From the IMG/VR virus record IMGVR_UViG_3300043435_000395, positions 1 through 26,473 of that record: a stretch of 26,473 nucleotides of DNA; one strand, written 5' to 3'. The stretch comes from a virus. A program made the translations under genes and the position numbers. The notes under the pieces were generated by a model, which was not told the origin of the DNA, did no database searches, and was given only the letters and a program-made list of their open reading frames with translations. Shown one piece after another: positions 1 through 26,292 of this stretch (within the stretch, counting starts at the first letter, position 1; every line of letters begins with the position of its first letter).

Positions 1-351
1 CTCTGTAGCGCTGTCTCTATTGACACGTAGAACGGTTTGCTGGTGTTCGTCACCGTTTGAAAGTAGGTTATCATATTCTTTTTTAAATTCGTTAATCACC
101 GACAAATAGGCAAGGTTTCCCTTGATCTCCATACCATTGTAATCATAGGTCTCAGACATCATCTTCTCATGTGTCTTGATTCCATGAATGACCAATGAAT
201 GTCTCCTATTGAACAACCTACCGATCTCTTGAAGCGTCATGTTTTCTCGAAGTATACTGAACAAATAGTTGCGCTTGTATACCAAGTCAATGCGCTGACT
301 AGGGCCATCTAGGCCGTCTCTTTCAATCCATTCTTTTATTTTATCTAGCAT
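1..351 (-). CDS. DnaA domain IV-like DNA-binding protein (3' end outside window)
   Basis: The reading frame starts at an ATG at 351 and stays open to the window edge (117 codons seen). Residues 38-64 resemble the helix-turn-helix of DnaA domain IV: 'LQEIGRLFNRRHSLVIHG' fits the family pattern of an EIG.xF.R.H.xV..(A/G) signature helix that reads DnaA boxes. No AAA+ ATPase part precedes it, so this is a stand-alone domain-IV-like protein rather than a full DnaA. A role in origin recognition, or as a repressor of DnaA-type sites, is inference. It is the last visible gene of the leftward operon, 2 bases after the 21-codon membrane gene. Confidence 0.62.
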   Translation of the reverse strand, partial: MLDKIKEWIERDGLDGPSQRIDLVYKRNYLFSILRENMTLQEIGRLFNRRHSLVIHGIKTHEKMMSETYDYNGMEIKGNLAYLSVINEFKKEYDNLLSNGDEHQQTVLRVNRDSATE

Positions 352-1535: not shown

Positions 1536-1889
1536 TTAATTAAAAGGTAGGTCATCCTGGTCGTCAGTGTGACCTGATCCTGGTGTGCTAGGCGCTGGAA
1601 CGAATGCCGGTTTCTCAGCAGTAACAGCGAACCCCTCAATAGTTGAGAAGAACTTCACCTGACCCTGTGGACTAGTCCACTCACGCCCCTTTAAACTGAA
1701 CGACACCTCGACCTCTTGGCCTTCAGCAATGCTCTCCAATAAGTCACACTTGTCGTTAACAAATGTGAATGGAATGTACTGCGGATACTGGTCAGCACCA
1801 TCGGTTAATACTAGCTCACGCTTACGAAATTTGTCGGAGATGGTCTCCACATTGCCCACCTTGTAGGCAATTCCTTTGAATTTAAACAT
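1536..1889 (-). CDS. DUF3127 single-stranded DNA-binding protein (OB fold)
   Basis: The sequence matches the DUF3127 family well: 'SDKFRKRELVL' (18-28), 'YPQYIPFTFVNDKCDLL' (35-51) and 'VSFSLKGREW' (62-71) are its hallmarks, followed by 'GQVKFFSTIEGF'. The C-terminus 'DDQDDLPFN' copies the acidic tip of SSB proteins, which binds partner replication and repair enzymes. The expected role is to coat ssDNA during phage replication and recombination. It lies downstream of the exonuclease genes, separated by one small membrane-protein gene, and probably shares the promoter at 3415-3446. Length (117 residues) is usual for the family. Confidence 0.85.
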   Translation of the reverse strand: MFKFKGIAYKVGNVETISDKFRKRELVLTDGADQYPQYIPFTFVNDKCDLLESIAEGQEVEVSFSLKGREWTSPQGQVKFFSTIEGFAVTAEKPAFVPAPSTPGSGHTDDQDDLPFN

Positions 1890-1898
1890 ATATATTAA

Positions 1899-2159
1899 TT
1901 AAAAGATTACTAAAATAATTGTGACAATACATATTATTGCCACTGCAATACCTAAGACATAGTTTTCAGCATTGTCTTCTACCGCCTCTAAAAAATAGAC
2001 ATGGTCCTGGATTACCTCAACCTCATCTGCATAGAAGTATAACTCATCAGTACCTACATTAACTAGGTAACCGTAGTTATGTCGCTTGGCCTCATAGATC
2101 TTACCGACCTCATCATGACGTAAGCCATAGCCTCCATCTGTTAACAACCGGACTCTCAT
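1899..2159 (-). CDS. Small protein with C-terminal membrane anchor, unknown function
   Basis: Residues 1-48 look like a small beta-rich (SH3-like) domain ('RVRLLTDGGYGLRHDEVGKI', then 'YLVNVGTDELYFYADEVEVI'). Residues about 66-86 are a single hydrophobic C-terminal anchor (AVAIICIVTIILVIF). Its start overlaps the stop of the exonuclease gene by ATGA, so it is probably translated by coupling. I do not recognise a family. A membrane-attached accessory to the recombination cluster is possible but unsupported. Confidence 0.6.
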   Translation of the reverse strand: MRVRLLTDGGYGLRHDEVGKIYEAKRHNYGYLVNVGTDELYFYADEVEVIQDHVYFLEAVEDNAENYVLGIAVAIICIVTIILVIF

Positions 2160-2941
2160 AGGTTCTTGGTTTTTAATATGCTGATATACTCATTGGCATA
2201 ATCATCAGCCACTTTCAGCCAACTCTCGATCGTTGCGATGTTGTCGTCAGTGAGGGTGACTCTCACAATTGTCGCACGCATGTTGTCATCGACATCATCC
2301 ATGTAGTGCAGCGTCGGTTCGTCCCATTCACCCAACAATTCCTCAGGTGTGTTGCACAGCATGTATGCCACCTCACCATCACGCCAATCAAGCCCGGTCA
2401 TTTGACGTAGCATCCATAGGTATGCCTTCACCTGCCAGTCATACCCTGACTCCTTAACCTTCTTAGCGGCCTTCTCCTCAGTCTTTGGGAACGTCTTTTT
2501 TGTGTATGATGACTTTATGTCAAGCACCTTGAGCCTGTCAGCGTCAACGACGTCAGGATGTCCATGCATGAGCGGTGTGCTGAGGTATGCGTACTTGTCA
2601 CCGTCAGACAACTTGTTGTAGTTGGTGAAAAAGATGCGGTTGTATAGCTCAATAGCCTCGTCCTCAACAGCAGTGCCCTTGTCAGTCTCCTTGCTCCAGA
2701 AGTGATCCTTGTACTGGTATATCTTCTCGTCAATGATCTCCTCGATCAACGTCTTGGCACCTTGACTTAGCTCAGGGTTGGCATCGCGCTTGGCAATCAG
2801 CTCATCACGCTTTGCCGCCTGTAGTTCAGTCAACTTTATCTTGGCTAGTAGACCATCAAGGGTTGCTTGTTGATTAGGCGTCAGACCTGGTGTGCCACTA
2901 TTAAATAGCGGTGCACACTTACTTGCCCGTAACTTCAGCAT
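2156..2941 (-). CDS. YqaJ/RecB-like PD-(D/E)XK exonuclease
   Basis: The PD-(D/E)XK nuclease core is visible in order: a helix with the first acid, 'GTAVEDEAIELY' (89-100); 'HGHPDVVDADRLKVLDIKSS' (126-145), giving G-x-PD with D130 and the D141-x-K143 metal/catalytic pair; and 'YDWQVKAYLWML' (167-178), the Q-x3-Y motif of YqaJ, lambda-exonuclease and Cas4-like enzymes. The 261-residue length is typical. Such enzymes resect DNA ends to prime strand annealing. Immediately upstream and overlapping by 23 bases is a conserved partner gene, and the DUF3127 ssDNA-binding gene is close downstream, which together make a recombination module. Confidence 0.8.
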   Translation of the reverse strand: MLKLRASKCAPLFNSGTPGLTPNQQATLDGLLAKIKLTELQAAKRDELIAKRDANPELSQGAKTLIEEIIDEKIYQYKDHFWSKETDKGTAVEDEAIELYNRIFFTNYNKLSDGDKYAYLSTPLMHGHPDVVDADRLKVLDIKSSYTKKTFPKTEEKAAKKVKESGYDWQVKAYLWMLRQMTGLDWRDGEVAYMLCNTPEELLGEWDEPTLHYMDDVDDNMRATIVRVTLTDDNIATIESWLKVADDYANEYISILKTKNL

Positions 2942-4238: not shown

Positions 4239-4360
4239 AACTTTATAGATATTCCGTGTAATAAAAAATGGATGAGTATCTCCCTGTCATCCAAACTCAG
4301 GGCAATAGACAGGCCGATAGTCCTACCGGCCGGCCAACTTTCAGTTATTCTTATTTTCAT
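4235..4360 (-). CDS. Small hypothetical protein (41 residues)
   Basis: An ATGA overlap joins it to the stop of the methyltransferase gene, and another ATGA overlap joins it to the next small gene. The product ('MKIRITESWPAGRTIGLSIA...') has no motif I know. Two exact coupling overlaps are the evidence that it is real. Confidence 0.48.
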   Translation of the reverse strand: MKIRITESWPAGRTIGLSIALSLDDREILIHFLLHGISIKL

Positions 4361-5181
4361 AGGTTCTTGAATATATGTGTGATTACTGATACGGTCCAAG
4401 AGTTACCTAGGGCCTTGTATCTTTGAGTATTGCTTACACCCTCGGTGAAGTGATCAGGAAACGTCTGCAATCGCTCGCACTCTACTGGTGTAAGCTTGCG
4501 GAAGTTCTTTGGGTCTACAGCTACCATGCTACGTTGCTTGCGCTCTATGCTGTTCCACGCCACAGCGCCATCATAACGTGCCGTGAGGCAGTATGCCTTG
4601 CCGTCAGACGTCACCATCCGCTCGTCAATTGGGTTAACTAAATCGCTATTGGTTTCTAATATGTCACGCAAGATTATGCCCTGATCATCGGGTTGAGTCA
4701 CGTTTGGAATGTTTGTCCAGTATAATCGGTAGCGGTTCTGAGCTGAAACAAGCGAGCTGTTGATTGCAATGGGCTCCACTCCCATGTATCTCGTTATCAC
4801 CGCCTGGCTTTCCTTCTTCATGCGCACATTCTCTAGCAAGAATCGCATCTTTGGGTTGTGGTCGGCTACGTGATGGCAGATGTCAACGAACACAAAGAAT
4901 AAGGCCGACCTTGGGTCGTCAAAGTTCAACTGCTTACCAGCAAAGCTGAACCCCTGACATGGACTGCCCCCCATCACTAGGTCAATCTCCGCCCATGGGA
5001 TGTCCCACTCTCTCCAATTGTTCACGTCACCAAGTTGGATGGTGTTCGGGAAGTTGCGTTGGGTTAGTTGGATTGCATACTTGTCAACCTCACTTGCGAA
5101 GTATTGGTCGACTGTTTGGTTTGCTTGTTTTAATGCAAGCTGACCGGCACTGATGCCGTCGAATAAGCTTAATACTTTCAT
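4357..5181 (-). CDS. C5-cytosine DNA methyltransferase (orphan)
   Basis: All main motifs of m5C methyltransferases are visible: motif I 'LFDGISAGQLAL' (6-17, SAM binding), motif IV 'GGSPCQGFSFAG' with catalytic C75, motif VI 'LLENV' with the Glu at 117, motif VIII 'QNRYRLYW' (148-155), then a short target-recognition region (about 165-225), 'RKLTPVECERLQTFP' (motif IX) and 'ALGNSWTVSVITHIF' (motif X). It transfers a methyl group from SAM to cytosine C5. No restriction enzyme lies nearby, so a role in shielding phage DNA from host restriction is likely. It overlaps both neighbours by ATGA. The 274-residue length is short for the family but complete. Confidence 0.9.
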   Translation of the reverse strand: MKVLSLFDGISAGQLALKQANQTVDQYFASEVDKYAIQLTQRNFPNTIQLGDVNNWREWDIPWAEIDLVMGGSPCQGFSFAGKQLNFDDPRSALFFVFVDICHHVADHNPKMRFLLENVRMKKESQAVITRYMGVEPIAINSSLVSAQNRYRLYWTNIPNVTQPDDQGIILRDILETNSDLVNPIDERMVTSDGKAYCLTARYDGAVAWNSIERKQRSMVAVDPKNFRKLTPVECERLQTFPDHFTEGVSNTQRYKALGNSWTVSVITHIFKNL

Positions 5182-5735
5182 TGTTGATTATAATATTTAG
5201 GTGGTACAATAATAAAGTGATTGACACAAAACACGTTTGATGTCTCCAGAGTTACAACTCTGGAAGGTATTTTATTGCGCTTGAGCTCAGCCAATTTTGC
5301 GCTAAGATTTAGCGCAGCATTTGGATACGGGCTGTCGTCCCATGAACCAGTGTCAGGCTCCATGTGAATTGAGTAGATTGGTTTGGCATAGCCTCTCCAA
5401 CCATCCAAGCGGATGTACTCTTGGCTCTCGTCGAAACACATGCCGACATGCGGGGCATCTGGTTGTGGATTGTGATTAACACGCGTCATCTCGCCGTCCC
5501 ATTGGTTGCCGTTTAGGATTGGTTTTTTCTTGTGCATACGTACATATGTATTCGGAAGCATGTTCAACCATTTATTGGTTGTCCTGGTCGGCCATCCTGC
5601 GTTGGTGACATATAGACCATCGGTTTTGTGTTCGGCAATTAAATTGCCAAATAGAAATAATGATCGGCCATCCGTTTGGCCGTTACCTTGTTTTTTCTTT
5701 TTGCCTTCAAGGAAGGATTGGATTACTGCGTTCAT
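5178..5735 (-). CDS. Conserved phage hypothetical protein next to the methyltransferase
   Basis: After a lysine-rich N-terminus (GKKKKQ, residues 11-16) comes 'LFLFGNLIAEHKTDGLYVTN' and 'AGWPTRTTNKWLNML'. This pattern of a glycine turn followed by T-x-TT-x-x-x-LN recurs in phage hypotheticals, as does 'PILNGNQWDGEMTRV'. No catalytic motif is clear. It overlaps the methyltransferase start by ATGA, so the two are probably translated together. Its own start lies inside the end of the preceding decayed HNH gene (29-base overlap). Confidence 0.6.
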   Translation of the reverse strand: MNAVIQSFLEGKKKKQGNGQTDGRSLFLFGNLIAEHKTDGLYVTNAGWPTRTTNKWLNMLPNTYVRMHKKKPILNGNQWDGEMTRVNHNPQPDAPHVGMCFDESQEYIRLDGWRGYAKPIYSIHMEPDTGSWDDSPYPNAALNLSAKLAELKRNKIPSRVVTLETSNVFCVNHFIIVPPKYYNQQ

Positions 5736-5997
5736 GTGGGTATATGTTTAAGAAGTGAAATAATTGCACTAGCTCAGTCTCGCTTTTGGCTGTCTTGAGC
5801 GGAGTGCGGAATTTAAGATACCAATAGGTCCCGAAGTTGTCCCATGTCATTTCATCGGTGAATTGGGATTCGAGATACATGCGGAATTTCTCACGATTCA
5901 GACAAACAAGTTGTCTGATTGTCGAGTTCTTGTTCCATCGGTTTGACTTTATTGAGTCGTTCAATAATTGTCTGTAGCGTAATTTTATTTTTTCCAT
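5707..5997 (-). CDS. Degenerate HNH-fold protein (catalytic pair lost)
   Basis: The segment 'FRMYLESQFTDEMTWDNFGT' (38-57) followed by 'YWYLKFRTPLKTAKSETELV' matches the C-terminal half of a common phage HNH endonuclease domain. In active members the second part reads W-H-x-D-H-x-x-P-L-x-x-A; here the Asp-His pair is replaced by Leu-Lys. The later 'FHFLNIYP' corresponds to the usual H-(Y/F)-x-N-L-x-P. So this is either an inactive nuclease remnant retained as a gene, or a DNA-binding protein derived from one. It is the first gene downstream of the heptamer array, with an intact frame. Confidence 0.6.
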   Translation of the reverse strand: MEKIKLRYRQLLNDSIKSNRWNKNSTIRQLVCLNREKFRMYLESQFTDEMTWDNFGTYWYLKFRTPLKTAKSETELVQLFHFLNIYPHERSNPILP

Positions 5998-6076
5998 CGT
6001 ATAACTTTTAGTGCATTAAAAGTACTACAAATAAATTTTAGTTATGGTGATTTGATGGTAAAAATGGGTAAAATGC

Positions 6077-6369
6077 ATGACGACTTTTGTCAATATATGA
6101 CGACTTTTAGGCCTTTATGACGAAATTATGACGAGTTTTTTTGCTGTATCCCTTATTGTTATTGACTTTATGACGATATGACGACTTTTTACCCTTTATG
6201 TAGAAAAAAAAAAAAAGTAGTATAACTTATAAGTATATAGATATATAGTAGTTTTATTTTCTCCGTATAGGGGTATTTTTTCGTCATTTCGTCATATTTC
6301 AGTGTATCTTGCTGATAATCAGCGAGATATATGAAATAATTTCGTCATAAAGTCGTCATGAGTCGTCAT
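6077..6369. repeat. ATGACGA iterons, 6 direct plus 5 inverted
   Basis: Direct copies are at 6077-6083, 6097-6103, 6117-6123, 6128-6134, 6170-6176 and 6178-6184. Inverted copies are at 6281-6287, 6289-6295, 6342-6348, 6353-6359 and 6363-6369. The spacing of the first two is 20 bases and of the last two 10 bases, close to whole helical turns. All direct copies lie left of the AT core and all inverted copies right of it. Confidence 0.85.
6305..6329. repeat. Long imperfect dyad inside the iteron array
   Basis: TATCTTGCTGAT and ATCAGCGAGATA face each other across one central A, giving 12-base arms with a single T-G mismatch. Outside them ATTTCA (6296-6301) and TGAAAT (6332-6337) add a further offset inverted pair. 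It could be a protein-binding dyad or a hairpin. Confidence 0.75.
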
Positions 6370-6426
6370 GAACGTAGTGTTTATAAGGGTTATAGCGTCA
6401 TACGCCATTGATGATTGTGACATTTT

Positions 6427-6696
6427 TTAATCTGCCGCTAAGTCCCATGGTTGTAAATTTTTAAAGTTGATCAAGTGTCTTTCCTTCAGCGTTGAAACAA
6501 TGAACTGAGCTAATTTCTTGTTGGTCTTCTCATTTGTCAGGTCGTTGTCACCGATTGAGCGGACGACGTCGCGTGGATGCATTTGAAGGATGCGGTTGCA
6601 GAACTTTACGTCCTGGCCTAGATGGAAACGTTTGTTCCGGTAGATTAATGTCCAATAGTGGGCAAACCCGTAGTGTTGTGTGATTACGATTTTCAT
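6427..6696 (-). CDS. Hypothetical protein (89 residues)
   Basis: A basic soluble protein with a beta-like N-terminus ('MKIVITQHYGFAHYWTLIYR') and a helical middle ('NRILQMHPRDVVRSI'). I recognise no family. Its start overlaps the upstream 49-codon gene by ATGA. It is the last gene before the heptamer array. Confidence 0.55.
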   Translation of the reverse strand: MKIVITQHYGFAHYWTLIYRNKRFHLGQDVKFCNRILQMHPRDVVRSIGDNDLTNEKTNKKLAQFIVSTLKERHLINFKNLQPWDLAAD

Positions 6697-8195: not shown

Positions 8196-8605
8196 GATTT
8201 CTATTTATTAAAGTTAGTGGTGCAGTGAGTATCGCTCTCATTAATTAGTCATTCTAACTACACCTAGTGTTTACATGCCACGTGAAACTGCATGCTCTCT
8301 TTTAGTCTCTACAGGCATCACCATTTGGCCTGTGAGGTTGACGTCGACCACCTGAGTAGTGTATCGAGCGCCCCGACGTAGCGGAGTCTTTATACTTACC
8401 GCATCGGCCTAGTGTGACTCACCTAGTTAGTTTATAGTCTTACCAATATGTCAATGAACTATGTAATGAGTAACTAATCTACTTTGAACCACTTTACCTC
8501 GGCGTGCTCCTCGAAAGGCGCTTAGTAAAACTTTATCTTTTCAATTCACCGCTTGAATACTGATTCGTCATCGTAACCTCTAGTGGTGTTGTTAGCTCGT
8601 TTGCT
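8196..8605 (-). other. Long untranslated leader, possible structured RNA
   Basis: About 400 bases lie between the leftward promoter and the first gene. No frame over about 15 codons with a start is present. Local structure includes ACAGGC (8311-8316) pairing with GCCTGT (8328-8333) and the near-palindrome GGTTGACGTCGACC (8336-8349). It does not look like a tRNA, and I could not match it to a riboswitch, intron or tmRNA. It may be a leader RNA, a small RNA gene, or a DNA control region. Confidence 0.4.
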
Positions 8606-10124: not shown

Positions 10125-10150
10125 AAAGCCCTCCAAGTGAGGGCTTTTTT
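10125..10150 (+). terminator. Intrinsic terminator before groEL
   Basis: AAAGCCCTC (10125-10133) pairs with GAGGGCTTT (10139-10147) across a 5-base loop, and the stem runs into a T tract. It lies 7 bases after the stop at 10118. Confidence 0.85.
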
Positions 10151-10182
10151 CATAATAATTAGACTAATACCACAAAATATAC

Positions 10183-10190
10183 TATTTTTG
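10183..10190 (+). promoter_or_regulatory. Bacteroidota-type -7 box for groEL-groES
   Basis: TATTTTTG fits TAnnTTTG and lies 18 bases upstream of the groEL start at 10209, just after the terminator of the previous unit. The chaperonin genes therefore have their own promoter. No CIRCE-type inverted repeat was seen. Confidence 0.62.
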
Positions 10191-10208
10191 TGGTATAAAT
10201 CTAATAAA

Positions 10209-11777
10209 ATGGTAGTAAAACATGTACATTTAGGCGATGAAGGTCGCCAAAAGCTCACTAGAGGCATCAAAACGATCGCTGGAGCAGTAAAAAGCACTCT
10301 CGGTGCGCGAGGACGGACAGTCCTAATCGAATCAGAACACCACGTAGGTGGTATTACAGTAACAAAGGACGGTGTGACGGTCGCTAAGTCGATCAATCTC
10401 TATGACCCGGTCGAGAACTTGGCTGTGATGATGATGCGCCAGGCTGCTGAGAAGACAGCCACTGTTGCAGGTGATGGGACAACCACGTCAATCGTGATCG
10501 CTGAGGCTATTGTTGACGGTGCATATGAGTTCCTCAGCCCAGACGAAAATGTTACTGAGGTGATTCGTGAGATCAATAGCATCACGACAGACGTCGTGAC
10601 ACACTTAACCAAACGAGCAAAGAAACTATCAGGCAAGAAGCTAAAAGACGTTGCGTCAATCAGTGCCAACAATGACACCACTATTGGTGGTATGATCGCT
10701 GACGCGTTCAGTGAGGTTAAGATGGTATCTGTTGAGAACAGTAAGGACCACAACACGTATGTTGAGGTGATCAAGGGGATTAAGGTTGACCGAGGTTGGA
10801 CTAGTCGCCACTTTGTCACTGACTACAAGCGACAAGAGGCTGTGCTAGAGAACCCATACATTCTGATCACTGATCAGGAGATTAATAACCTGCTCAACAT
10901 TGAGAAAGTACTGCAACATGTTGTCGCACAGAACAAGTCACTACTCATCATCGGTGAGATGACACCTGCTGCTTTGAACACATTGAACATCAATGTGTCT
11001 CAAGGCAAGATCAAGGCATGCCACATCATGCCTCCGAACTTCGGGTACCGTCAGAAAGACTTGTTGGAAGACCTAGCAATCGTATTGGACGGCACATACT
11101 TTAGTGAGGACACTGGTGATGACCTATCTCTTATTGACGTGGCACATCTTGGTCGTTGCGCTAAGGTGATCGTTGGTAAGGACAATACTATATTCATGCC
11201 CTATGCTAGCTCTCAAGATAGCATAGACGCCCGCATTGCTGACATCAACGAGACCATATTCGAAGGCATAACAAAAGAAGAGCTTGACAACCGCAAAGAG
11301 CGAGCAGCCAACCTATCGGGTGGTGTTGCTGTGATCCACGTTGGAGCGCTCAGCGACATTGAGCAGAAGGAGAAGCGCGACCGCATCGATGACGCTGTCT
11401 GCGCTGTTGAGGCTGCATTAGAGGAGGGAATCCTTCCTGGTGGTGGTGTTGCGCTGTATGAGTATGCTCATCAAAACCTAAAAGCCATTAACTCTGCATC
11501 GGCTCAGATCATGTACAAGGCATTAACATCACCTATGCGTCAAATACTTGACAACGCTGGTAAAGATGCTCAGTTCATCATGGACGGCATCCTTCCGTTC
11601 CCTAACGAGGGCTATGACGTGAAGGGTGAGCAGTATGGTGACATGATTAAGCTTGGTATCATTGACCCGGCTAAAGTCACTAAGAACGCTTTGTTGAACG
11701 CTGTGTCGGTAGCAACGACGATAATGAGCACAAACGCAATCATTACAAATATCAGAGCAGATGAAAGTATTAAATAA
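10209..11777 (+). CDS. groEL: Phage-encoded chaperonin GroEL (Cpn60)
   Basis: The 522-residue product is a full-length group I chaperonin subunit, which forms rings that fold proteins using ATP. The start at 10209 is chosen because residues 2-60 then align with GroEL. Visible are 'LGARGRTVLI' (31-40), 'KDGVTVA' (53-59), the ATP loop 'GDGTTTS' (88-94), 'RIDDAVCAVEAALEEG' with Asp-395 matching the ATP-hydrolysis residue D398 of E. coli, and 'PGGGVAL'. The C-terminal Gly-Gly-Met tail is absent. It precedes groES, the reverse of the usual bacterial order. A dedicated phage chaperonin probably folds virion proteins such as capsid or fibre. Confidence 0.95.
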   Translation: MVVKHVHLGDEGRQKLTRGIKTIAGAVKSTLGARGRTVLIESEHHVGGITVTKDGVTVAKSINLYDPVENLAVMMMRQAAEKTATVAGDGTTTSIVIAEAIVDGAYEFLSPDENVTEVIREINSITTDVVTHLTKRAKKLSGKKLKDVASISANNDTTIGGMIADAFSEVKMVSVENSKDHNTYVEVIKGIKVDRGWTSRHFVTDYKRQEAVLENPYILITDQEINNLLNIEKVLQHVVAQNKSLLIIGEMTPAALNTLNINVSQGKIKACHIMPPNFGYRQKDLLEDLAIVLDGTYFSEDTGDDLSLIDVAHLGRCAKVIVGKDNTIFMPYASSQDSIDARIADINETIFEGITKEELDNRKERAANLSGGVAVIHVGALSDIEQKEKRDRIDDAVCAVEAALEEGILPGGGVALYEYAHQNLKAINSASAQIMYKALTSPMRQILDNAGKDAQFIMDGILPFPNEGYDVKGEQYGDMIKLGIIDPAKVTKNALLNAVSVATTIMSTNAIITNIRADESIK

Positions 11778-23058: not shown

Positions 23059-23266
23059 AAAAATTTCCATTGGTCCTGATTACATGAAGTCTATGCACTA
23101 CATGGTTGGTCAGACTGTCCTAGATAGAACTTGGGAGATCAACACCATCCGTAAAGAGGATGATGGGTCTATCTGCGTTTGGGTTATAAAGGACGGTGAG
23201 ATTATTAAATGGAAGTCTTTCTCAGCAACAGTTCCTGTAGCTATAGAGTACAAAATAGATTACTAA
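23045..23266 (+). CDS. Small conserved phage protein (73 residues), GTG start
   Basis: The product 'MSIIRKISIGPDYMKSMHYM' with 'VGQTVLDRTWEINTIRK' and 'GEIIKWKSFSATVPVAIEYK' fits a short beta-rich phage pattern (GPD....MHY.VGQ ... WK.F...P). The GTG at 23045 is accepted because the conserved part needs it and the next ATG would remove the N-terminal strand. It overlaps the next gene by 1 base (TAATG). Confidence 0.58.
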   Translation: MSIIRKISIGPDYMKSMHYMVGQTVLDRTWEINTIRKEDDGSICVWVIKDGEIIKWKSFSATVPVAIEYKIDY

Positions 23267-23829
23267 TGAAATCACCATACTGCTTCATCATTAAACCAGT
23301 TGGTCTGAGGCGGTACGATAACATAAGGAAGTTCGGAGATACCGACTTCTATATCAGCTCCTCCCAAGAAGACCACAAGACATCCAATCGCTTTGCTGAA
23401 GTGATTAGTGTTCCTATTTACTATAACGGCCCGGTTCAACCTGGAGACACTGTGGTAGTGCACCATAATGTTTTTAAATACTATTACGACATGAAGGGCC
23501 GTCAGAAGAGCAGCTGGAACCATTTAATGGATGACTTATTTTTAGCAGAGGTTGATCAAATATATCTATATAAAAGAGATGTCAATTGGCAGGCTGTTGA
23601 TCCGTTTATATTTATCAGACCGATACCGACTGAGGATAAGTTAATTAGCTCTACCGGTGCGCATGAGTCGCTATGGGGTGAGGTTGTGTATAAAACCTCC
23701 ACACTGACAAATGTCAGTGTCGGTGATACAGTCTCATTCACACCAGACAGCGAGTATGAATTTATAATAGATGGTGAGACCATCTACAGAATGTATAACA
23801 AGAACATATGTCTAAAAAGGGAGAAATAG
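23266..23829 (+). CDS. Protein with two tandem GroES-like (Cpn10) folds
   Basis: The 187-residue product shows two Cpn10-like halves. The first (about 4-105): 'FIIKPVG', a long polar loop, 'RFAEVISVPIYYNGPVQPGD', 'TVVVHHNVF' and a closing strand 'VDQIYLYKRD'. The second (about 113-187): 'FIFIRPI', a loop, 'LWGEVVYKTSTLTNVSVGDT' and 'SEYEFIIDGETIYRMYNKNI', which follows the GroES pattern GeV...V..GD.V.F......I.gE.y......I. The ATG at 23266 overlaps the previous stop. It may be a co-chaperone or an assembly factor for packaging. The match is structural in nature and weak by residue identity. Confidence 0.5.
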   Translation: MKSPYCFIIKPVGLRRYDNIRKFGDTDFYISSSQEDHKTSNRFAEVISVPIYYNGPVQPGDTVVVHHNVFKYYYDMKGRQKSSWNHLMDDLFLAEVDQIYLYKRDVNWQAVDPFIFIRPIPTEDKLISSTGAHESLWGEVVYKTSTLTNVSVGDTVSFTPDSEYEFIIDGETIYRMYNKNICLKREK

Positions 23830-24083
23830 TAGAGGCGGCCAAGCAAGCAATCGATGAGTTGATCAAGGTGCTAAAGTCACCTATCATCACTCACGCTGAG
23901 GACGATATATCGGCCGATAAGATGAAGAACGCAGCGTCAGCTAAGCGTTTGGCATTTGAGGATGCCATGTATATGCTCAATAAGATTGAGGAGGAGGAGA
24001 ACAAGGCTGCAGAGGGCCCAATTGTCGAGGTTACACTCGGCAAATCAGGATTTGCTGAAGGAAGAGCAAGACATGGAAAATAA
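23808..24083 (+). CDS. Conserved protein upstream of large terminase, possible small terminase
   Basis: The product 'EIVEAAKQAIDELIKVLKSP' and 'DISADKMKNAASAKRLAFED' 'AMYMLNKIEEEENKAA' is helical, with a Phe-Ala-Glu-x-Arg-Ala end ('GFAEGRARHGK'). I recall a family with 'ADKMKNAA.AKR.A..DA' directly ahead of the large terminase in this phage type. A small terminase subunit is the natural guess, but no clear DNA-binding helix-turn-helix is seen. It overlaps both neighbours (22 and 11 bases). Confidence 0.6.
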   Translation: MSKKGEIVEAAKQAIDELIKVLKSPIITHAEDDISADKMKNAASAKRLAFEDAMYMLNKIEEEENKAAEGPIVEVTLGKSGFAEGRARHGK

Positions 24084-26292
24084 GCTGTACTCCATAGTAA
24101 ACGACTACATTCACAAGACTGCTCTTAATACTAAGAACAGCAAGAAGTCATGGGACTATGGTTACAACAAAGAGTATGACCTGATAGTTATATCTAAGGA
24201 TGGAACCATTGGTGATATCTATGAAATAAATGGACTAAAGGTTGCTTTACCTCAACAGCCAAAGACTGTTGAGAGCAGAGGTAACAGATGGCAGCCAGTA
24301 GAGTATCCAGCTGAGCTGCAGAAAATTAAGTCAATATTTGACTGGAACCGTAGAGATAACGCGTTCAAGTCTAAGTATGTGGATATGATCGAAGATGAAT
24401 TTGAGAGACGAGAGCAAGGCTTTTGGTTCATTAACAACGGAACACCGACATACATCACCGGAACACATTACATGTATCTACAGTGGACAAAGATTGATAT
24501 TGGTCTTCCTGACTTCCGTGAGTCCAACCGAATATTCTACATATTTTGGGAGGCATGCAAGGTAGACAGCCGAGCGTTTGGTATGTGCTACTTAAAGAAC
24601 CGTCGTTCAGGATTCTCATTCATGTCGTCTGCAGAGGCGTCAAACACAGGCACAATTGTTAGAGACGCTAGACTTGGTATTCTATCCAAAACAGGATCGG
24701 ATGCCAAGAAGATGTTTACCGACAAGGTTGTACCTATCGTAAGAAATTACCCATTCTTTTTCAAGCCGATCCAGGACGGTATGGACAACCCGAAGACGGA
24801 GTTGGCCTTCCGTGTTCCTGCGAGTAAGATTACTCGTAAGAATATGGATGAGGAGCGCGATGATGATATAGATGGGTTAGATACTACCATTGACTGGAAA
24901 AACACAGCAGACAACAGCTATGACGGTGAGAAGCTGCTTCTACTTGTACATGACGAATCAGGAAAATGGGAAAAGCCAGAGAACATCTTAAATAACTGGC
25001 GAGTTACTAAGACTTGTTTACGTCTTGGTAGCCGTATCATTGGTAAGTGTATGATGGGATCAACATCAAACGCGCTTAGTAAGGGTGGTGAGAATTTTAA
25101 GAAGTTGTTCTACGACAGTGATCCAACCAAGCGATCTGCCAATGGTCAAACCAAGTCAGGGCTTTACTCTTTGTTTATTCCAATGGAGTGGAATATGGAG
25201 GGTTTTATTGACGAGTATGGATGGCCTGTATTTGAGGATCCTAAGAAGCCTATTATGGGTATCGATGGTGAGGAGATTACCATGGGTGTCATTACCTATT
25301 GGAACAATGAGGTGGCTGCAATGAAGTCAGACTCAGACGCACTCAACGAATACTACCGTCAGTTCCCTAGAACGGAGTCACATGCTTTCCGTGACGAGAG
25401 TAAGTCATCTTTATTTAACTTAACAAAGATATACCAACAGATTGACTACAACGATGCGATGATCAAAGATCGCGTCCTAACAACCGGTTACTTCCATTGG
25501 AAGAATGGAGAGAAGGATAGTGAGGTTATTTGGACTCCTGATCCTAAGGGGCGGTTTGTGGTATCATGGATTCCTGACGTTAAGATACGTAACAATGTCG
25601 TTAAGAAGGACGGCAAGTTCTACCCAGGCAATAAAGACATCGGTGTGTTTGGTTGTGACCCTTATGACATATCAGGTGTAGTTGGTGGCGGTGGATCTGC
25701 AGGTGCGCTCCACGGTATAACCAACTTTCACATGGAGAACGCGCCAACCAATCACTTCTTTTTGGAATACATTGCTCGTCCTCAAACTGCTGAAATATTT
25801 TTTGAGGATGTATTGATGGCTTGTTTTTTCTATGGAATGCCTATACTTGTAGAGAATAACAAGCAGCGACTATTGTATCACTTTAAGAACAGAGGTTATC
25901 GTCCATTCTCAATGAACAGACCTGACAAGCATACGTCTAAACTATCAAAAACAGAGCTTGAGCTAGGCGGTATTCCTAACTCTTCAGAAGATATAAAGCA
26001 CGCTCATGCCAATAGTATCAACACTTACATTGAAGAGTACGTCGGAATTGACGCAGAAGGTAATTATCGAGAAAATGACAGTATGGGTGACATGTACTTT
26101 ACGAGAACGTTAAATGACTGGGCACGATTTGACATCAATAACCGAACAAAACACGATGCCTCTATTAGCTCAGGACTAGCATTAATGGCATCTAGAAGAC
26201 ACCTATTTATACCTGTTAAGCAGGAATCTAAAATAAGTGTTAAATTTGTAAGATATAAGAATACTGGCATAAGAAGCGAAATTATCGAATAA
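24073..26292 (+). CDS. Terminase large subunit
   Basis: The 739-residue product is the packaging motor. The ATP site is a deviant Walker A, 'LKNRRSGFSFMSS' (174-186), with the lysine moved to K175 as in lambda gpA (K..R.G(Y/F)S). Walker B is 'LLLLVHDESGKWEK' with D294-E295, and the coupling motif 'MMGSTSN' is at 328-334. The RNase H-like nuclease has 'FGCDPYDISG' with D529, 'ILVENNKQ' with E594, and 'SMGDMYF' with D673. The ATG at 24073 is chosen as the start of the homologous part; upstream codons are a shadow of the previous gene. It overlaps the portal start by TAATG. Confidence 0.85.
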   Translation: MENKLYSIVNDYIHKTALNTKNSKKSWDYGYNKEYDLIVISKDGTIGDIYEINGLKVALPQQPKTVESRGNRWQPVEYPAELQKIKSIFDWNRRDNAFKSKYVDMIEDEFERREQGFWFINNGTPTYITGTHYMYLQWTKIDIGLPDFRESNRIFYIFWEACKVDSRAFGMCYLKNRRSGFSFMSSAEASNTGTIVRDARLGILSKTGSDAKKMFTDKVVPIVRNYPFFFKPIQDGMDNPKTELAFRVPASKITRKNMDEERDDDIDGLDTTIDWKNTADNSYDGEKLLLLVHDESGKWEKPENILNNWRVTKTCLRLGSRIIGKCMMGSTSNALSKGGENFKKLFYDSDPTKRSANGQTKSGLYSLFIPMEWNMEGFIDEYGWPVFEDPKKPIMGIDGEEITMGVITYWNNEVAAMKSDSDALNEYYRQFPRTESHAFRDESKSSLFNLTKIYQQIDYNDAMIKDRVLTTGYFHWKNGEKDSEVIWTPDPKGRFVVSWIPDVKIRNNVVKKDGKFYPGNKDIGVFGCDPYDISGVVGGGGSAGALHGITNFHMENAPTNHFFLEYIARPQTAEIFFEDVLMACFFYGMPILVENNKQRLLYHFKNRGYRPFSMNRPDKHTSKLSKTELELGGIPNSSEDIKHAHANSINTYIEEYVGIDAEGNYRENDSMGDMYFTRTLNDWARFDINNRTKHDASISSGLALMASRRHLFIPVKQESKISVKFVRYKNTGIRSEIIE

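Follow-up and report, generated by a model that had tools for sequence, protein, structure and literature searches.

The viral record IMGVR_UViG_3300043435_000395 of IMG/VR is a fragment of 26,473 bp, and this entire stretch, hereafter the window, contains between two leftward open reading frames (ORFs; 5707-5997 and 6427-6696) a repeat array that is a candidate origin of phage replication (Table 1). An exact-match scan detected 11 copies of the heptamer ATGACGA within 293 bp (6077-6369) and only two additional copies in the window, at 8565 and 24950. The number expected for the whole window is 2.56, and the observed total of 13 was reached by no shuffled sequence; in 5000 first-order random copies of the array interval, the word occurred on average 0.09 times and at most three times, and the best non-AT 7-mer of any kind had no more than 5 copies in 1000 trials. 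Not only are the words arranged in two opposed arms, but the mirror symmetry is exact, with both inner pairs and a pair of perfectly complementary 17-nucleotide arms sharing the common midpoint 6232.5. Apart from the inner pairs, the spacings in the array are approximately multiples of 10.5 bp, and the core enclosed by the arms falls within the 0.2 % of the window with the lowest guanine and cytosine (GC) content. An earlier note, made from the sequence alone, had described the six rightward and five leftward words within 300 bases, an A13 tract in a TATA-rich core, a dyad with 12-base arms and the leftward direction of both flanking genes, all of which we recovered, and the clustering of the word, on which that note had placed weight, is unique in the window.

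Table 1. Features of the array and of its surroundings in the window
Feature	Position	Strand	Remarks
Rightward ATGACGA copies	6077, 6097, 6117, 6128, 6170, 6178	+	Exact match
Leftward ATGACGA copies	6281, 6289, 6342, 6353, 6363	-	Exact match
Left outer iterons	6077..6134	+	ATGACGA at 6077, 6097, 6117, 6128; spacing 20, 20, 11 bp; exact matches, helical phasing
17-nt arm	6113..6129	.	Perfectly complementary to 6336-6352 (inverted-repeat search)
Left inner iteron pair	6170..6184	+	6170, 6178, 8 bp apart; 8-bp inner pair recurs in relatives
AT-rich core, 96 bp	6185..6280	.	GC 0.22; A13 run 6204-6216; TATA-rich centre; proposed DNA-unwinding element
Right inner iteron pair, inverted	6281..6295	-	6281, 6289, 8 bp apart; midpoint with left pair 6232.5
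Dyad	6305..6329	.	12-nt arms with 11/12 paired around a 1-nt loop; located between the right inner and right outer sites
Right outer iterons, inverted	6342..6369	-	6342, 6353, 6363; exact matches
Primase/SF3-type helicase (candidate initiator), first 24 codons	1..74	-	Cut by window edge; translation MITYFQTVTNTSKPFYVSIETALQ identical to N terminus of L077/G007
DnaA domain-IV-like protein	1..351	-	117 amino acids seen, 140 in G007; PF08299 3.2e-07, 30.7 bits, cut-off 31.5 narrowly missed
Single-stranded DNA-binding protein	1536..1889	-	phrog_4932
PD-(D/E)XK exonuclease	2156..2941	-	phrog_5715; tracks word class
C5-cytosine methyltransferase gene	4357-5181	-	Near array; no match in first set of related loci
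185-amino-acid protein	5178..5735	-	phrog_554 (function unknown); in most close relatives, found a short way downstream of the array
Terminase large-subunit gene	23956-26292		17.5 kb from array

A search of viral contigs with the two flanking genes yielded 27 loci on about 20 contigs, the longest of them 65 kb. In nearly all relatives that cover the respective place, a mirror cluster lies between the two genes or next to them; the earlier note had proposed such a comparison with related phages. Neither a comparable density of ATGACGA elsewhere nor a displaced array in relatives, which that note would have taken as refuting an origin, was observed. The geometry of these clusters is fixed and the word drifts: in close relatives it reads ATGACGA (class I), ATGTYRA (mostly ATGTCAA or ATGTCGA) or is ATGTTRA-like. 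The usual left arm consists of outer sites 10-21 bp apart, a step of 42 or 53 bp and an inner pair 8 bp apart, and is followed, after a gap of about 97-111 bp, by the inverted inner pair, a step of 31 or 42 bp and the outer sites of the right arm. There is one array per contig, the next densest 400-bp stretch having 1-4 copies. Sites of like orientation are spaced with a period of 10.4 bp when 17 arrays are taken together (R 0.756, compared with a largest R of 0.255 at any period of 9-12 in 2000 jittered sets), which places the sites of an arm on the same side of the DNA helix. In seven of nine contigs (G001, G003, G004, G005, G007, G012 and G019; GC 0.13-0.18), six contigs of 57-65 kb among them, the core represents the 90-mer poorest in GC along the whole contig. 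When viral contigs were searched for the exact mirror pattern with the word ATGTCRA, no match was found, because the inner right sites in such arrays often read ATGTTGA or GTGTTGA. In the arrays of G010 and G020, the interval that contains the dyad in the window, between inner and outer sites, likewise contains dyads, and these are of unrelated sequence.

The genome encodes a D5/SF3-type primase-helicase (PF19263, that is DUF5906, above the cut-off, together with PF08800). Its gene lies directly downstream of a gene for a DnaA_C-like protein, with which it overlaps, and specifies 777 amino acids comprising a BT4734-like primase domain and a DUF5906/SF3-type helicase domain with the Walker A motif GGTGKG. 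The identity of this helicase among relatives follows the word class, being at least 88 % within and at most 82 % between the two classes, and its most strongly class-specific parts are a linker (residues 275-309) and the C-terminal wing (748-777). Residues 675-765 were modelled as a winged helix by AlphaFold2, and residue 757 in the wing is Lys in class I alone and Arg in the rest of the family, just as A at word position 4 is found in class I alone. Foldseek matches of the whole helicase model include AsfvPrimPol (the PrimPol of African swine fever virus, ASFV), poxvirus D5/E5 and the SaPI5 primase-helicase, and many of the top non-significant matches of the C-terminal domain look like winged-helix proteins. 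We consider this helicase the likely reader of the word. In contig G007, a C-terminal helicase fragment is encoded on the minus strand at 25531-26640 (5531-6640 of locus L050), and a match to an intein splicing domain lies ahead of this fragment.

The DnaA-like proteins are the other obvious candidates for this role, and the binding of the words by such a protein had been suggested before. In that case, the array would still be an origin, its words would be read by the phage DnaA-domain-IV-like protein or by a second protein of this kind, and the helicase would be loaded afterwards. The overlap with the helicase gene speaks for this possibility, as does the presence of two different DnaA domain-IV-like proteins in each of several genomes (G005, G007, G010, G013 and G019). 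However, the helix-turn-helix that forms the recognition region is the same in G019, with ATGACGA, and in G001, with ATGTCAA, and the best identity between the classes reaches 95 % and 88 % for the two proteins; furthermore, the array lacks DnaA boxes (TTATCCACA, with up to one mismatch, none being present between 5990 and 6430). A DnaA-like protein does not track the word and was rejected as the determinant of word specificity; it could still bind the array if it read only the common positions TG..YRA. On balance, we regard this explanation as unlikely and favour the helicase as the reader.

The helicase family, which corresponds to phrog_28855, a group without assigned function, is encoded in at least 573 viral-contig stretches. 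When 80 helicase loci and one additional record were scanned, arrays scoring above every shuffled control were found in 18, and a de novo word scan added 3 further arrays; most of the loci without an array stop short of the expected place. In distant helicase relatives (50-62 % identical), the words are RTGTTRA or GTGTCGA. The complete circular podovirus MW202828, with a helicase 48.5 % identical, carries a mirror array of ATGTCGA at 42,620-42,806, in a different neighbourhood adjoining groEL; nine direct CGCGACG repeats are also present about 170 bp from this array (5243-5435 of locus L157). In elemoviruses, in which the N-terminal part of the helicase is 37.9 % identical, no comparable array was detected in the 28 kb read.

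Of 2.9 million viral contigs, six contain the exact class I pattern; five of these belong to this family, and one (L033/G017) is unrelated. The G017 array (3206-3507 of L033/L067) is perfectly symmetric and follows, at a distance of 46 bp, a gene for a P4-family helicase with D5_N and DUF5906 domains. This phage shares no detectable protein with the window family and has a GpA-type terminase and a lambda-type portal; it uses the identical seven-base word although the C terminus of its helicase is differently built. The use of the same word by an unrelated phage might indicate that a host factor reads the word, which would then mirror the host. Yet G017 has its own P4-family helicase next to the array, and different words are found in close relatives of the window phage, so that we give this explanation very little credence, and less than to the possibility, itself improbable, that the array serves an early transcription regulator as operator or silencer and is not an origin. 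Phased and oriented intergenic repeats are typical of repressor arrays as well, and dyads and promoter-like sequences are found near the array in relatives; however, the gene content downstream of the array varies between relatives, the MW202828 array lies among other genes, mirrored arms around the lowest-GC stretch of a genome are not expected of an operator, and genes for D5/SF3 helicases accompany the arrays in unrelated phages. The recurrence beside such genes points instead to replication.

Origins of this general kind are already known. The annotated rep_origin of Lactobacillus phage A2 (AJ251789, 32208-32717) is located directly downstream of a D5-like primase gene and contains four rightward and four leftward copies of ACGGGAG, one of the latter with a mismatch, an 8-bp inner pair on one side and a core with a GC of 0.20; of all 60-mers in the 6 kb examined, the core is the poorest in GC. 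It resembles the window array in the mirrored short words, the 8-bp inner pair, the AT-rich core and the association with a D5-like primase, and differs from it in the word itself, in the position immediately after the gene and in the shorter core (about 70 bp). The situation in phi105, where AGTAACA pairs 9 bp apart flank an AT-rich core, is similar to that in A2. No clear mirror array was found downstream of the gene in MaGuCo, Cen1621 and Pthi1, phages with D5-type helicases, and the mirror-array rule is therefore not universal. Iteron plasmids and lambda-type origins likewise place short repeats next to an AT-rich element; there, direct repeats lie on one side, whereas in the window array two inverted arms enclose the element. 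In P4, the primase is of the TOPRIM type and a second site, crr, is needed, so that ori1 and crr constitute two cis sites with the same iterons, in contrast to the single array per genome in the window family.

Several helicases of this kind are known to bind origin repeats. The Rep protein of Staphylococcus aureus pathogenicity islands (SaPIs) is a helicase initiator that recognises its origin by the C-terminal domain, and the related SCCmec helicase Cch2 binds repeats in the same way (PMC7581432); the alpha protein of P4 is a primase-helicase the winged helix of which binds the origin repeats (PMC4234260). In the literature on phage-inducible chromosomal islands (PICIs), the layout of these origins has been termed unique to PICIs (PMC6092414). 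The window family is linked to SaPIs by the match of the full helicase model to SaPI5, and differs in its BT4734-like primase domain and in being carried by full-size phages, SaPIs and PICIs being satellites. The array is best read, by analogy, as working like a self-loading-helicase origin of the SaPI/P4/A2 type; what is new is the large phage family, the drifting words and the site away from the helicase gene. The remark in the earlier note that it knew of no described origin with this word may hold for the word, whereas the layout is known.

Collectively, these observations argue that the array is very probably a replication origin, as originally proposed, because it is conserved in single copy, helically phased and centred on a lowest-GC core with a GC-skew minimum nearby, and because it shares its anatomy with the A2 rep_origin and is found again next to the P4-family helicase gene of the unrelated G017. 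For the more specific interpretation, a replication origin with the phage's own primase/SF3-type helicase as initiator, we estimate a probability of roughly 0.78. Several points weigh against it. The GC-skew minima, although located 0.4-5 kb from the array in G003, G004, G005, G007, G019 and MW202828 (at 43,505, 0.7 kb off, in the latter), coincide with the switch in gene direction, which confounds them; GC skew thus supports an origin weakly and was rejected as an independent test. Of approximately 58 protein families tested, 14 besides the helicase also separate the word classes, so that the helicase signal could stem from a module inherited as a unit, and a 92-amino-acid protein and the exonuclease split the classes more sharply than the helicase does. 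The K757/R757 change, which matches word position 4, represents a single evolutionary event and is therefore no more than suggestive. The full AlphaFold2 model is poor over residues 494-641, the C-terminal domain alone had no significant Foldseek match in the PDB (best E 0.14), and the helicase profile yielded no significant match among PDB sequences. Finally, the array in G007 precedes the helicase gene by about 6 kb, whereas the origins of PICIs, SaPIs included, and of A2 directly follow the gene; in G017 the array is downstream, and the location directly after rep characterises the named members by position without being required by the mechanism.

Under the helicase-initiator interpretation, the primase/SF3-type helicase would bind the 7-bp words via its C-terminal winged helix, and the opposed arms, each on one helix face, would recruit two oppositely oriented helicase assemblies, which the 8-bp inner pairs would set at the edges of the AT-rich core. 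The core would then be melted, and the helicases would load and prime, leading to bidirectional replication. The origin and its likely initiator would make up the replication module of a phage group that is abundant and little studied, and would extend to full-size phages a layout considered specific to PICIs; the natural series of words at a fixed geometry makes the specificity between initiator and origin directly testable, and the array can be used for finding origins in metagenomic phages. It is also conceivable, albeit doubtful, that phage SF3 (D5/P4-type) helicases share a general origin grammar of mirror iterons around an AT-rich core, in which the word is set by a few winged-helix residues, such as Lys or Arg 757 for A or T at position 4. 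If so, the sequence by itself would suffice to recognise origins with their word specificity and to compare them between phage families.

The remaining genes of the window bear on one further explanation, namely that the array has another function in cis, for instance as a packaging start or as a partition (centromere-like) site; repeated oriented words are present in such sites as well. The distance to the terminase large-subunit gene (Table 1) argues against packaging, and among the left-arm proteins searched, which leave many ORFs outside, there was no ParA/ParB-type or TubR-type partner; we consider this the least probable of the explanations weighed here. As for the host, relatives of the helicase are found in phages of Flavobacterium, Cellulophaga, Nonlabens and Polaribacter, and the host of the window phage is probably a member of the Bacteroidota, to judge from these sequence matches; a scan of genome contigs returned mostly metagenome-assembled bins with mixed labels and therefore does not settle the host. 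The phage family is found mostly in aquatic samples. The window also encodes a phage GroEL (phrog_5725, 10137-11777, plus strand) and, about 11 kb apart from it, a GroES-like protein (phrog_13932, 23209-23829, plus strand), and both groEL and groES are carried by MW202828 and the elemoviruses as well.
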